A stretch of 8,142 nt of DNA, from positions 1-8,142 of the forward strand of contig QNFO01000040.1 in the NCBI GenBank assembly GCA_003646355.1, in the 5' to 3' direction. The translations under genes and the position numbers were made by a program. Below are positions 1 through 2,411 of this stretch, in pieces. The DNA is from Gammaproteobacteria bacterium (GTDB lineage: Bacteria > Pseudomonadota > Gammaproteobacteria > Pseudomonadales > Porticoccaceae). Positions within the stretch are counted from its first letter, which is position 1. Every line of letters begins with the position of its first letter. The notes under the pieces are model-generated. The model ran no database searches. It saw only the letters and a list, made by a program, of their open reading frames with translations, and had not been told where the DNA came from.

Positions 1-89
1 TACAAGTAGGAAACGGAATCGTTACAAGCAACTGCAACTTCTGCGCGTTCCCTCTTGGTTGCCATTTTTAGAAAGTTCTTTAGCTCCAT
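1..89 (-). CDS. Cro/YdaS-like HTH regulator, 5' part only (runs off left edge)
   Basis: The minus strand from the ATG at 89-87 is open to the window edge and gives 29 residues beginning MELKNFLKMATKRERAEV and continuing AVACNDSVSYL. This matches the opening of small phage Cro/YdaS-type proteins, which run M-x-L-x-x-(Y/F)-L, then a charged R-x-R/E-R stretch and an HTH recognition part of the form C-x-x-S-x-x-Y-L-Y-Q. A second in-frame ATG lies at 65-63, but the upstream one keeps the conserved M-x-L-K-x-F-L start. The position, divergent from a CI-like repressor, supports the role of early-gene regulator opposing it. No Shine-Dalgarno sequence precedes the ATG. The C-terminal part is not visible, so the family call rests on about 29 residues. 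Confidence 0.65.
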   Translation of the reverse strand, partial: MELKNFLKMATKRERAEVAVACNDSVSYL

Positions 90-96
90 GCGCAGA
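78..96. promoter_or_regulatory. Weak operator-like site over the Cro-like start codon
   Basis: The site reads CTTTAGC-TCCAT-GCGCAGA. The left half keeps TTTAGC exactly; the right half keeps only GCG and one A of the expected GCKAANC. It is centred 21 bp from the next site (99-117), about two helical turns, and covers the start codon at 87-89 just as the 177-195 site covers the repressor start. It is a degenerate member of the set at best. Confidence 0.35.
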
Positions 97-97
97 A

Positions 98-126
98 AGA
101 TTAGCACCGTGCGAACCAAGCAACAA
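98..126 (-). promoter_or_regulatory. Predicted promoter of the Cro-like gene
   Basis: On the minus strand a -35 hexamer TTGTTG (126-121) is followed, after exactly 17 nt, by a -10 hexamer TAATCT (103-98). The ATG begins 8 nt later, at 89, so the transcript would start at or next to the start codon. The -10 lies at the edge of the 99-117 operator, as expected for a promoter shut off by the lysogenic repressor. Confidence 0.5.
99..117. promoter_or_regulatory. Predicted repressor operator over the Cro-like promoter
   Basis: The site reads GATTAGC-ACCGT-GCGAACC, two 7-bp half sites around a 5-bp spacer. The left half is identical to that of the 912-930 site, and the right half differs from it at one base. 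It overlaps the predicted -10 of the Cro-like promoter, so binding here would repress the early genes. Confidence 0.65.
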
Positions 127-145
127 CCAGCCAAATAGACTATTT

Positions 146-164
146 GTTTATCATTGTGCTAAAC
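146..164. promoter_or_regulatory. Predicted repressor operator over the repressor promoter -35
   Basis: The site reads GTTTATC-ATTGT-GCTAAAC; the arms are an inverted repeat with one mismatch. It contains the predicted -35 (148-153) of the repressor promoter. A directly repeated half site TGCTAAAC lies at 157-164 and again at 168-175, 11 bp apart, about one helical turn. That second copy has no partner arm at the right spacing. Confidence 0.65.
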
Positions 165-176
165 ACCTGCTAAACT
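148..176 (+). promoter_or_regulatory. Predicted promoter of the repressor gene
   Basis: A -35 hexamer TTATCA (148-153) and a -10 hexamer TAAACT (171-176) are separated by 17 nt, each matching four of six consensus bases. The repressor ATG at 184 lies 7 nt after the -10, where transcription would begin, so the message would be leaderless, as for lambda cI from PRM. Operators 146-164 and 177-195 flank the -10. Confidence 0.5.
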
Positions 177-195
177 GTTTCGCATGAAGCGAAAA
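177..195. promoter_or_regulatory. Predicted repressor operator over the repressor start codon
   Basis: The site reads GTTTCGC-ATGAA-GCGAAAA. TTTCGC and GCGAAA are perfect inverted arms around the same 5-bp spacer as the other sites. The repressor ATG (184-186) forms part of the spacer. Because it spans the predicted transcription start, binding here would switch off repressor synthesis, making it a candidate autoregulatory or Cro-preferred site. Confidence 0.6.
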
Positions 196-861
196 ATAAA
201 TCAAATAAGACTTAACAATCTTGAGCTTCTCATTAGCGAAGCCGGATCAGCCGCCAAGCTAGCGCGTACCGCTGGTACAAACAGCTCCTATCTCAGCCAG
301 GTACGCAATCAATTACCCACGAAAAAAGGAACCCCTCGCGCCATAGGCGATGACTTAGCAATCAAATTGGAAGATGCAATGAATAAACCCCAAGGATGGA
401 TGGACAATTGGCACGACGGTAATACCTACGACAAACAAGAATACAACGCACATTTAGGGCCAGAACTCAGAAGCCCCCTCCCCTTAATATCCTGGGTACA
501 GGCTGGGGAGTGGCAGGAAATATCAGAGAGTTTTGTACCTCAGTATGGCGACGAGATGTTTCAATGCCCCGCAAAATGTAGCCCTGAGTCTTTCGTACTC
601 AGGGTACGAGGCACCAGCATGGAACCCAAATTCCATGAAGGCGATTTAATCTTTGTCGACCCCAATGCCTCGGCTGAGCATGGTAAATATGTCGTAGTAC
701 GAATTGATGCCTCCAATGAAGCAACGTTTAAACAGTTGATCATTGAAGAAGGAAGTCAGTACTTAAAGGCATTAAACCCGGATTGGCCAAACCGCATTAT
801 CGAGATCGACGAAGATGCCAGTATTTGCGGTGTCATTGTGTTTAAGGGCGAGCTTATATGA
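184..861 (+). CDS. Phage CI-type repressor, LexA/S24 self-cleaving family
   Basis: This 225-aa protein is the likely lysogenic repressor. The N-terminal part holds a helix-turn-helix at about residues 22-42 (SAAKLARTAGTNSSYLSQVR). The C-terminal half is a LexA/UmuD-type S24 peptidase fold. All expected self-cleavage parts are visible: the scissile Ala107-Gly108 in WVQAGEW, the nucleophile Ser145 in GTSMEP and the general-base Lys183 in TFKQL. It should therefore dimerise, bind the palindromic operators around its own promoter and be inactivated through RecA-stimulated cleavage during SOS. It is divergent from the Cro-like gene and followed after 76 nt by the DUF4224-integrase pair, with no clear terminator between them. 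ATG at 184 is the natural start: it opens a full-length HTH domain, although no Shine-Dalgarno sequence is present. Confidence 0.92.
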   Translation: MKRKINQIRLNNLELLISEAGSAAKLARTAGTNSSYLSQVRNQLPTKKGTPRAIGDDLAIKLEDAMNKPQGWMDNWHDGNTYDKQEYNAHLGPELRSPLPLISWVQAGEWQEISESFVPQYGDEMFQCPAKCSPESFVLRVRGTSMEPKFHEGDLIFVDPNASAEHGKYVVVRIDASNEATFKQLIIEEGSQYLKALNPDWPNRIIEIDEDASICGVIVFKGELI

Positions 862-911
862 AAGTTTTAGCTGGAAGATAAGAAGAAAAAATATACCCAC
901 ACCACATATTT

Positions 912-930
912 GATTAGCTTAATGCTAACC
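912..930. promoter_or_regulatory. Predicted repressor operator and promoter region of the integrase genes
   Basis: The site reads GATTAGC-TTAAT-GCTAACC, a perfect TTAGC/GCTAA inverted repeat with the same 7-5-7 layout as the operators near the repressor. It ends 7 nt before the ATG of the DUF4224-like gene. A -10-like hexamer TAACCT (926-931) overlaps it and would start transcription at about the ATG at 938. No good -35 is seen at 16-18 nt, so the promoter itself is weakly supported; the operator is better supported than the promoter. Confidence 0.6.
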
Positions 931-937
931 TCTTTTT

Positions 938-1171
938 ATGGATATAGTAAAAGACTTCCTTACCCCTGAGCAGTGCCACCTGATAAGCGGCTATAAAAGA
1001 CCCAGAGATCAACTAAGATACTTTCGACTTATAGGTGTTACAGCGAATTTAAATGCCGCCAACAAGGTATTAGTACACCGATTAGCGCTAGAGCAAGCAC
1101 TAGGAGTATCGATAAAGCAATCTAATAAGAAGAGCCCTTCTGATCGCCTAAATATACAAGAGGTAATATGA
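938..1171 (+). CDS. Small DUF4224-like protein coupled to the integrase
   Basis: This 77-aa protein opens with FLTPEQ (residues 7-12) and then SGYKRPRDQLRYFRLIGV (17-34). That is the pattern of DUF4224 proteins, which carry a leading F-L-(T/S)-x-x-E/Q, an (L/I)-(S/T)-G-Y-(K/R)-(R/K)-P and a Q-(I/L)-R-x-(L/F) stretch, and are usually encoded directly before phage integrases. Such proteins have been suggested to act as excisionase-like or accessory DNA-binding factors, but I know of no firm function. Its stop overlaps the integrase start (ATGA at 1168-1171), so the two are probably translated together. No Shine-Dalgarno sequence precedes its ATG, and a predicted repressor operator lies 7 nt upstream. 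The lysine-rich C-terminal third, about residues 60-77, matches nothing I recognise. Confidence 0.75.
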   Translation: MDIVKDFLTPEQCHLISGYKRPRDQLRYFRLIGVTANLNAANKVLVHRLALEQALGVSIKQSNKKSPSDRLNIQEVI

Positions 1172-2196
1172 TGGCCCCTCAAAAAAGGAACACGGAAAAC
1201 CGAAAACTGCCTCAATACTGGAGGTATCGAAAAGGGTTTTATTGGTTCAGAACATCACCTGAAAATCGCCACCTTTGGGATAATAAAGTTGAATTCAAAT
1301 TAGGCAGGACAGAATCTGAAGCCTTTGATTCTTATGCTAGACGAATTGCTATATCAGAAGACTGCGAAACGATGAGGGATGTTCTCACTCGCTACAGGCT
1401 AGAGATTTTACCTACCAAAGCCAACAGCACGCAAAAACAACGAGCTTACTGTTTACCCAGGCTTATGACCGCATTTGGCGATCTGAAGCCCTTTGAGCTA
1501 ACACCCTCGATGATTTATAAATACATGGATCACGTTAAGAGGGTGAAATCAGAAAAATGGGCGAATACTGATTTAGAGTGCTTATCCCACGCCCTGTCAT
1601 GCGCAGTTAGATGGGGCACACTCGACCGCAATCCCGCCATCGGTCAAGTTCGTAAGTTTAGTACCAAAGGACGTAAGCATAAAGTTAGCAATGAAGACCT
1701 AATTTTATTTGCAGAGTTACTACCCCGTAAATGGCAACTCTATATTTCATTAAAGCTTTGCACACGCGGTAGAAGAAAAGGGGAGCTACTCCGTATCAAG
1801 CTTTCCGACTGTACTGAAGATGGCATTGAGTTTCGTAACAACAAAAACCCCGATGACCTATACCTCATCGAATGGACGCCCCAACTAAAATCGATTATTC
1901 ACGAAATAGAGTCTCTACCACCAAGACGAATCGGCAGCGCCTATTTATTCATCAACAGGCATGGTAGACCCTACATAAATGAGGAGACTAGTGAAACAAG
2001 CGGCTTTGATTCAATGTGGCAACGATGGATGAAAAAAGCTAAGGCAAAAGGTGTCACACACTTCACTGAAAATGACTTAAGAAAGAAGGCCGTCGAAGGT
2101 GAAAGTTTACAAAGGGCACAAGAATTATTGAGACACACAACAGCGCAGACAACTAAGAAACACTACTCAATTCGAGACAAAATAAGTACAACTTGA
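1168..2196 (+). CDS. Phage tyrosine recombinase (integrase) with an atypical box II
   Basis: This 342-aa site-specific recombinase should insert and excise the element at the neighbouring tRNA-Lys. The N-terminal part (about 10-60) resembles an arm-binding region, about 65-160 a core-binding SAM-like domain, and about 170-342 the catalytic domain. Active-site residues in order are Arg203 in GRRKGELL (box I), a probable beta-hairpin Lys226, Arg305 in NDLRKK (box II), His323 in LLRHTT and the nucleophile Tyr333 in KKHYS. The first His of the usual H-x-L-R box is Asn302 here. The closing part resembles the A-K-x-x-S-D-x-E-S-L class of phage integrases. AGG at 1161-1163 gives a spacing of 4 nt to the ATG at 1168 and 7 nt to a second ATG at 1171, so the second may be the real start. 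It overlaps the upstream gene and converges on the tRNA. Confidence 0.93.
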   Translation: MMAPQKRNTENRKLPQYWRYRKGFYWFRTSPENRHLWDNKVEFKLGRTESEAFDSYARRIAISEDCETMRDVLTRYRLEILPTKANSTQKQRAYCLPRLMTAFGDLKPFELTPSMIYKYMDHVKRVKSEKWANTDLECLSHALSCAVRWGTLDRNPAIGQVRKFSTKGRKHKVSNEDLILFAELLPRKWQLYISLKLCTRGRRKGELLRIKLSDCTEDGIEFRNNKNPDDLYLIEWTPQLKSIIHEIESLPPRRIGSAYLFINRHGRPYINEETSETSGFDSMWQRWMKKAKAKGVTHFTENDLRKKAVEGESLQRAQELLRHTTAQTTKKHYSIRDKISTT

Positions 2197-2215
2197 GCAA
2201 GGTATATTCATTCTA

Positions 2216-2244
2216 TGGGGAAAACCCCCAATTGTGGGGAAAAC
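2216..2244. repeat. Direct repeats with alternative hairpins next to the attachment site
   Basis: TGGGGAAAAC occurs at 2216-2225 and again at 2235-2244, 19 bp apart. The same bases allow two mutually exclusive hairpins: GGGG-AAAA-CCCC (2217-2228) and CCCCA-ATTG-TGGGG (2226-2239). The position, between the integrase stop and the tRNA end, is where integrase arm-type binding sites are expected, so the direct repeats are candidate arm sites. This is inferred from position and repetition only. Confidence 0.4.
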
Positions 2245-2261
2245 GATAGTGGTCACTATCG
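2240..2261 (-). terminator. Probable intrinsic terminator of tRNA-Lys
   Basis: On the minus strand, 16 nt after the tRNA CCA end, an 8-bp inverted repeat (CGATAGTG at 2244-2251 and CACTATCG at 2254-2261, with 2 nt between) is followed by TTTT (2243-2240). The outer seven pairs with a 4-nt loop make a plausible short terminator. The U tract is short. The sequence belongs to the element side, so the element would have brought its own terminator. The near-perfect symmetry could instead be a protein-binding site. Confidence 0.45.
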
Positions 2262-2277
2262 CTGCAGGTATTGAAAA

Positions 2278-2315
2278 TGGTGGGCCGTCCGGGATTCGAA
2301 CCCAGGACCAATTGG
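2278..2315. other. Candidate attachment site in the tRNA 3' half
   Basis: Tyrosine integrases commonly recombine within the anticodon-to-3' end part of a tRNA gene, and the element restores the gene by supplying an identical 3' segment. Here the intact 3' half, from the anticodon stem through the T arm to the encoded CCA, faces an integrase gene that ends 81 nt away. The exact core cannot be fixed, because the second copy at the far end of the element is outside the window. Confidence 0.5.
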
Positions 2316-2353
2316 TTAAAAGCCAACTGCTCTACCAACTGAGCTAACGGCCC
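2278..2353 (-). tRNA. tRNA-Lys (anticodon UUU)
   Basis: The minus strand folds as a complete 76-nt tRNA. The acceptor stem GGGCCGT (2353-2347) pairs with ACGGCCC (2288-2282). The D arm contains GCTCAGTTGGTAGAGC. The anticodon stem GTTGG/CCAAT closes around the loop CTTTTAA with anticodon TTT, and the T arm is CTGGG-TTCGAAT-CCCGG. The discriminator is A (2281) and CCA (2280-2278) is encoded. It should decode AAA and AAG lysine codons. The gene follows queC by 58 nt, has its own strong-looking promoter, and its 3' end marks the border of the integrated element. It is not a queuosine substrate, since Q occurs in GUN anticodons, so its place next to queC is probably only positional. Confidence 0.97.
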
Positions 2354-2368
2354 TCAGAGGAGGCGCAC

Positions 2369-2396
2369 ATCTTACTTGTCAGAAAAAAAAGGTCAA
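2369..2396 (-). promoter_or_regulatory. Promoter of tRNA-Lys
   Basis: On the minus strand TTGACC (2396-2391), 16 nt and TAAGAT (2374-2369) form a good sigma-70 promoter. The bases just after the -10 read GTGCGCC, a GC-rich discriminator of the kind linked to stringent control of stable RNA genes. Transcription should begin around 2362, about 9 nt before the mature tRNA end. The T8 run lies in the spacer. Confidence 0.75.
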
Positions 2397-2411
2397 GCGT
2401 AATTTGTCATT

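Follow-up and report, generated by a model that had tools for sequence, protein, structure and literature searches.

According to excerpts of the published work, SXT/R391, an integrative and conjugative element (ICE), has four operators between s086 and setR; they are bound by its repressor SetR, which controls setCD, and SetCD in turn is needed for int and xis expression (PMC4542580). In ICEclc, transfer is activated jointly by BisD, a protein with a ParB domain, and BisC, which carries a DUF2857 domain (excerpts of PMC7423338 and PMC9286271). In ICEBs1, ImmR inhibits the excisionase gene and the genes downstream of it (excerpt of PMC6540685). Here, we analyzed a stretch of 8,142 nucleotides (the window; contig QNFO01000040.1) from a gammaproteobacterium of the family Porticoccaceae, in which the gene of an S24-type repressor lies between a divergent Cro-like gene and an excisionase gene. 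Six sites in this region, O1 to O4 at the switch between repressor and Cro-like gene and R1 and R2 in front of the excisionase gene, are predicted to be one palindromic operator family. It is likely, as judged from the sequences compared, that they are the operators of the element's own repressor, probably shared with its Cro-like partner, and that the element is an ICE. The features are listed below; the palindromic sites are given without strand and with the scores of the leave-out matrix described further on.

Positions 3-89, reverse strand: 5' end of the divergent Cro-like gene, which runs off the window; its 29 amino acids are 86% identical to the divergent gene of locus L004.
Positions 79-95: O1, TTTAGCTCCATGCGCAG, overlapping the Cro-like gene's start codon; 16.0 bits.
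Positions 100-116: O2, ATTAGCACCGTGCGAAC, over the extended -10-like element TGCTAATCT of the divergent promoter; 19.6 bits.
Positions 147-163: O3, TTTATCATTGTGCTAAA, includes the -35-like TTATCA of the repressor promoter; 20.6 bits.
Positions 178-194: O4, TTTCGCATGAAGCGAAA, over the repressor start codon; 19.9 bits; absent from some relatives.
Positions 184-861, forward strand: S24/CI-LexA-like repressor, 225 amino acids; PF00717 4e-29, phrog_4 3e-37; Ala-Gly cleavage motif, Ser and Lys.
Positions 866-882: R1, TTTAGCTGGAAGATAAG, upstream member of the excisionase pair; 13.8 bits.
Positions 913-929: R2, ATTAGCTTAATGCTAAC, overlaps the extended -10-like element TGCTAACCT before xis; 17.8 bits.
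Positions 938-1171, forward strand: excisionase, or recombination directionality factor (RDF), gene xis, 77 amino acids; phrog_4764 5e-5 and phrog_8896 7e-5, which are modest E-values.

When the genome_contigs collection was searched with the repressor, 35 loci were found. Full-length relatives with 65-79% identity were present at 24 of them, and the remaining 11 were cut by contig ends or matched only part of the protein. The 24 relatives and the window together make up the 25 sequences referred to below.

The locus resembles SXT/R391 in its CI-like repressor, in the four operators (predicted ones here) in the gap, and in the presence of a predicted Cro-like gene on one transcript with an activator, which in SXT is the FlhDC-type SetCD. 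However, whereas the excerpt on SXT/R391 has int and xis controlled via SetCD (PMC4542580), here two predicted operators are located on the excisionase promoter itself, and the predicted activator is of the BisD/BisC type. A repressor that reaches int and xis via an activator only is thus not what is predicted here, as putative operators precede the excisionase gene in 22 of the 25 sequences (the window and 21 of the 24 relatives). With ICEclc, the locus shares adjacent genes for ParB-domain and DUF2857 proteins and, judged by family names, a related ICE core. In contrast to ICEclc, for which the excerpts name MfsR, TciR and BisR as regulators, BisR activating the alpA promoter (PMC7423338, PMC9286271), an S24 repressor and a Cro-like gene front the operon. 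As in ICEBs1, an element-borne repressor would hold the excisionase and transfer genes off. ICEBs1 is a Gram-positive element, relieved by the protease ImmA and with one repressed start (excerpt of PMC6540685), whereas two separate control points are predicted here. In the titles and abstract openings of open-licence papers, neither this repressor nor the R1-R2 pair was mentioned, and nor were operators of this kind in PFGI-1-type ICEs.

In the regions upstream of the relatives' repressor genes, conservation was visible in short blocks. Palindromic expectation maximization (EM), seeded with the motif of a preliminary description of the window and applied to 15 non-redundant switch regions, returned about 55 sites with the consensus TTTAGCAYNRTGCTAAA, three to four per region in 14 of the 15 regions and two in L022. 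The loose consensus GNTTAGCN5GCKAANC of the preliminary description was by itself only moderately significant, at about two-fold over chance: allowing up to three mismatches, the window contained 27 matches compared with 13.4 expected from dinucleotide shuffles, and 2 of 200 shuffles reached 27. Therefore, a trained matrix was used instead. This leave-out matrix, with the consensus TTTAGCACCGTGCTAAA, came from palindromic EM on 14 switch regions, all from non-redundant relatives and none from the window. The top six sites in the window had their centres at 155 (20.6 bits), 186 (19.9), 108 (19.6), 921 (17.8), 87 (16.0) and 874 (13.8), and the seventh and eighth sites reached 9.6 and 4.4 bits, respectively. 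Order-1 Markov-shuffled windows contained on average 0.1 sites of at least 14 bits, yet the best single site in 300 shuffles scored 19.4 bits.

Most of the earlier account of the motif held up. The four clear sites are located where it had placed them, at the centre distances that it gave (21, 47 and 31 bp in the switch and 47 bp in the distal pair), and a single predicted family does occupy promoter elements of both the repressor/Cro-like gap and the integration module. The two sites that had been noted as weaker forms (78-96 and 865-883) are genuine members, because the leave-out matrix ranked both among its top six, separated by a clear gap from the seventh (13.8 versus 9.6 bits). The 5-bp spacer of the proposed palindrome is not neutral, however: the bases flanking the GC steps are conserved (TTAGCA-YNR-TGCTAA).

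The motif is conserved next to close homologues of the repressor: O2 and O3 were found above 11 bits in all 24 relatives, O1 in 23 and O4 in 14, in addition to the distal pair in the 21 relatives mentioned above. No O4 above 11 bits was found in L019-L027 and L034. Wherever O1 and O2 both exceeded 11 bits, they were 20 or 21 bp apart. O1 overlaps the third codon of the divergent gene, which encodes leucine. Of 25 such genes, some of them near-identical, 24 use CTA at this position, compared with 6 of the 147 other leucine codons of the divergent genes. This bias indicates that O1 is kept at the DNA level.

Outside the switches, the 25 sequences (397 kb) contained 40 sites above 14 bits, compared with 2.0 expected from order-1 Markov shuffles, and 39 of the 40 were members of the pair in front of an excisionase-like gene. 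The other one is a lone operator-like palindrome of 15.9 bits, TTTCGCATTCTGCGAAG, situated 3662 bp downstream of the repressor start in L025, a lineage without the excisionase pair. R1 and R2 were also present at five more loci, L014, L029, L033, L035 and L037, in which the repressor gene is truncated by the contig end, and both O1-O3 and R1-R2 were found in L082-L084, which had been excluded from training and are related to L019 and L021. Loci whose similarity to the repressor is confined to its C-terminal half (L001-L003 and L030-L032) had no site above 14 bits.

The spacing of the distal pair falls into two classes. Among 30 pairs, R1 and R2 were 48 bp apart in 14 cases, 47 in two, 37 in 13 and 38 in one. 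The distance between O2 and O3 was 47 or 48 bp in 25 of 28 sequences and 37 bp in the other three. The two pairs share these distances, which differ by about one helical turn, as would be expected if binding were cooperative and phased. When the window was compared with seven relatives of the 47/48-bp class, identity was 65-76% in R1, 82-94% in R2 and 10-30% in the spacer; conserved sites around a spacer at chance identity represent a footprint at R1-R2. The mean spacer identity was 0.41 for all eight members of this class and 0.82 for the 37-bp class, so that recent shared ancestry accounts for part of the conservation in the latter.

Three promoters in the window share the pattern TGC-TAAnnT (TGCTAATCT, TGCTAAACT and TGCTAACCT), in which the operator half TGCTAA doubles as an extended -10 element. 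Promoter positions were taken from a best-match search within the expected distance, which always returns something and is thus weak evidence. For the divergent gene, the best match in each of the 25 sequences had a -35 element starting with TTG and a -10 element whose end lies 7 or 8 bases upstream of the ATG. For the repressor gene, it was located 6-8 bases before the ATG in 17 and elsewhere in 8. Since these -10-like elements lie so close to the start codons, leaderless transcripts from the switch promoters are plausible. A sigma-70 scan of window positions 1-2400 gave three matches, none of them at operator sites.

The specificity of the motif was high at the scale of genomes. On an Alcanivorax nanhaiticus contig, of which 400,000 of 405,965 bases were scanned, six sites scored 16.4-21.3 bits, followed by one of 13.4. 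A 21-bp direct repeat (95% identical) on G003:C2, at 133242-133262 and about 241830-241850, may bound an ICE of about 108 kb in this species. In a sample of 390 genomes from the order that includes G001, eight contained the repressor (E up to 1e-60). Two composite patterns describing the pairs matched at eight places in the 390 genomes, all beside the repressor: seven were in the repressor-bearing genomes, all of which were represented except G148 (locus L081), and the eighth was a contig end, L037, at which the repressor gene is cut. Both reversed-pattern controls gave no match in the 390 genomes. As the patterns were built from known pairs, these numbers show specificity and not a discovery rate; they also show that the motif is not scattered at random. 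Satellites that might borrow the pair without a repressor were considered, and the sole candidate, G244:C25, turned out to be the L037 contig end. Matches of a single-motif pattern in G344 and G271 were uninformative.

The genes behind the pair are diverse. In a PHROGs scan, excisionase families were matched by eight of eight products encoded behind R2: phrog_66 in L004 and L013, phrog_2917/539/9668 in L010 and L019, phrog_2790 in L009, and phrog_2907 in L018 (1e-6) and, weakly, in L022 (0.0015), in addition to the families listed above for the window. The products of L004, L013 and L009 also matched other DNA-binding families. With Pfam, HTH_17 was found in L004 and L018 (below the cut-off in L013), DUF1233 in L019 (below the cut-off in L010) and AlpA in L009; the window product (938-1171) had no Pfam match. 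Beyond these eight, products were assigned by sequence likeness or cluster. At loci with an AlpA-type excisionase, integrase cluster c13 was on the opposite strand in eight of the eight that have c13 (L005, L006, L009, L012, L015-L017 and L021); the integrase domain of c13 was checked in L009. The integrase is thus found on either strand, and the excisionase gene always follows the pair. Therefore, the constant target would be the excisionase and not the integrase. The initial proposal that the repressor directly controls the integrase genes was correct in placing operators at the integration module, but the pair fronts the promoter of the RDF gene.

A second AlpA-type gene was observed between the repressor gene and R1 in L079, whose coordinates are those of L027; by cluster, L004, L007, L008 and L011 have such a gene as well. 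It resembles the excisionase of the 37-bp class and lies directly behind the repressor gene without a pair of its own; it is perhaps a relic of a replaced module.

We consider the chances to be about even that R1, R2 and their promoter represent a portable regulatory socket, behind which whole excisionase/integrase modules are swapped while the pair stays phase-locked at about 3.5 or 4.5 helical turns.

The genes behind the Cro-like gene point to the identity of the element. A ParB-like core gene was found there in 22 of the 24 relatives; the sequence of the other two, L006 and L011, breaks off on that side. Clusters of the syntenic block comprised DUF2857 in 17, STY4528 in 18 and PFL_4669 in 17 of the 24 relatives, the remainder being mostly short loci. 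In L019, NCBIfam and Pfam identified a PFGI-1-type ParB (TIGR03764), DUF2857, the replication protein STY4528, TIGR03761/AcaB (PFL_4669) and a ParM-like protein, with matches to STY4534 just under and to a RadC-like family under the cut-off. The type IV secretion ATPase TraC_PFL_4706 exceeded the cut-off in 11 of 12 host genomes and was not found in G002. In four of the six genomes in which the repressor was placed (G001, G003, G005 and G006), TraC was encoded on the same contig at a distance of 25-32 kb; in G004 it was on another contig. With this core and TraC, the relatives look like PFGI-1/ICEclc-type ICEs in which the immunity module alone is phage-like. The "phage switch" of the preliminary description is therefore given up as the identity of the element. 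Among plasmid records, 170 contained relatives of the repressor, all below 60% identity.

The immunity module does have phage kin. Eleven viral contigs (L059-L069, IMG/VR contigs among them) encode a relative of the divergent Cro-like protein (39-53% identity) in the Cro position. Eight of these have sites above 11 bits between the Cro-like gene and a divergent repressor gene, mostly of 12-15 bits and thus weaker than in the ICEs; L061, L067 and L068 have none. The repressor has 244-261 amino acids and is S24-like by eye in six of the eight; the repressor next to the motif in L065 is shorter, at 167 amino acids, and has a related N-terminus but no visible S24 part, and the L059 repressor was not resolved in the list of open reading frames (ORFs). 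Strong distal sites (16-21 bits) are frequent in the viral contigs. In Klebsiella phage Chronis, the repressor is 38% identical and, by direct comparison, the product in the Cro position, gp43, 36% over 70 amino acids. Sites of 20.2 and 17.9 bits are found in the first codons of the annotated gp42, ahead of another ATG further into gp42 that is the better candidate for the repressor start; a site of 21.6 bits lies downstream of gp42. The immunity regions of Chronis and the IMG/VR contigs thus resemble the locus in repressor, Cro-like protein, TTTAGC-N5-GCTAAA operators and a distal operator, but the distal site of L060, L062 and L066 is located 11 bp before a short leftward ORF and not before an excisionase gene. 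An operator of this form appears common to the immunity regions of phages with a related Cro-like protein (L059-L069 and L074), often with a distal copy. The repressor-to-Cro gaps of six other phages with S24 repressors (SfV, yong2, PAJU2, BPP-1, Turba and an Acinetobacter phage) contained no site above 10 bits; the motif therefore belongs to a sub-group. In the switch of the Acinetobacter phage (L076), a variant palindrome, TTTAGTATTTTACTAAA, lies upstream of the repressor gene and possibly represents a shifted specificity of the same operator type. A tblastn search of phage records with the Cro-like protein yielded nothing at 1e-3 and missed the Chronis relative. A phage origin of the immunity module is plausible.

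That the whole element is an ordinary prophage, as first supposed, would fit these phage relatives with the same operator. However, the ICE-type ParB gene lies behind the Cro-like gene in every relative that is not cut there, next to repressors with 65-79% identity, whereas a scan of viral contigs for the repressor (with six exact-word patterns, and thus of limited reach) gave only three loci, all C-terminal matches, and the best phage records stayed below 60%. We regard a prophage as quite improbable. It is unlikely, although less so, that the sites serve mainly the divergent Cro-like protein and that the S24 repressor binds weakly or elsewhere. In its favour, all 24 relatives and the motif-bearing viral contigs have the Cro-like gene together with the repressor gene, both proteins have a similar S-x-YL-x-Q stretch, and L065 carries the motif beside a repressor without a visible S24 part. 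In well-studied CI/Cro pairs, operators are common to both proteins, which argues against an assignment to Cro, and L061 and L068, two cases only, combine the Cro-like protein with repressors of another kind and have no switch sites above 11 bits. The binder is probably the repressor.

The position of R1-R2 beside recombination genes near one end of the element would also be expected of arm or Xis sites used in recombination. Yet the pair has the same motif as the switch, precedes differing excisionase families with the integrase on either strand, and has R2 on a -10-like element in the same way as O2; we therefore consider recombination sites very improbable. Hardly credible is the explanation that extended -10 elements of the form TGCTAA, or chance, were mistaken for operators. 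The right halves of O2 and R2 do coincide with -10-like elements, and the loose consensus exceeds chance just two-fold, but promoters do not explain the left halves, the palindromy, the fixed spacing and the near-exclusivity in genomes.

Several observations weigh against operators of the S24 repressor in an ICE, the reading that we prefer. The TGC before the divergent -10 element at O2 is lost in L022, L025, L026 and L034, L022 has also lost O1 and O4, and L081 (63% identity) keeps O2 alone. In L025, L026 and L034, the switch is kept and the matrix scan found no R1-R2 pair; no site was found in L028 (51%, cut). The R2 promoter of the window has no recognisable -35 element. The relaxase TIGR03760, the one relaxase family searched, was found in 2 of 12 host genomes and once above the cut-off, and the G003 copy is on a different contig from the repressor. 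In the window, only 183 bp of the element remain to the left of the repressor gene, and its ICE nature therefore follows from homology (up to 79% for the repressor and 86% for the first 29 residues of the divergent protein). Finally, self-cleavage cannot be general, since the predicted cleavage site reads Val-Gly in L082-L084 and in 6 of the 24 relatives.

The window repressor itself has the motifs QAG (Ala-Gly), GTSMEP (Ser) and GKYVVV (Lys), and its best-scoring solved chain is lambda CI (3bdn). The Val-Gly set comprises L019, L020, L021, L023, L024, L027 and L082-L084 (repressor residues near 106-108), all without O4, and is possibly a non-cleavable branch. L022, L025, L026 and L034 have Ala-Gly repressors and yet no O4; Val-Gly and the loss of O4 are thus not strictly linked.

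If the sites are the repressor's operators, regulation could proceed as follows. In the quiet state, repressor dimers on O1 and O2 would block the divergent promoter, and the Cro-like protein, the ParB-like and DUF2857 pair (a BisD/BisC-type transfer activator) and the replication genes would be off. Independently, repressor on R1 and R2 would mask the extended -10 element of the excisionase promoter, and the element could not excise. O3 and O4, which flank the -10 element of the repressor's own promoter, would mediate autoregulation. Both promoters would be released at once if the repressor were lost, and the window copy carries a LexA-type self-cleavage motif that could bring this about.

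The right-hand part of the window contains the integrase gene and a presumed integration target.

Positions 1168-2196, forward strand: tyrosine integrase; phrog_1 integrase 4e-23; 4-bp overlap with xis (ATGA).
Positions 2278-2353, reverse strand: tRNA-Lys(ttt), found with ARAGORN, presumed integration target; its 3' end faces the integrase gene.

Between the two, a direct repeat, TGGGGAAAAC, occurs at 2216-2225 and 2235-2244, 19 bp apart, and could represent integrase arm sites. Further to the right follow what we take, from the ORFs, to be the host genes queC and queE and the tol-pal cluster.

These predictions bear on how the large PFGI-1/ICEclc group stays coherent while exchanging its integration modules. 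If the socket proposal is true, any captured recombination module would obey the immunity repressor at once, along with the BisDC-type transfer activator. With a phage-type repressor directly gating both excision and this activator, a core that in ICEclc answers to other regulators would become linked to SOS-like induction. The operator and its spacing would also provide a short DNA signature by which such elements could be found along with their excisionase genes, even genes that are hard to annotate, such as xis of the window.

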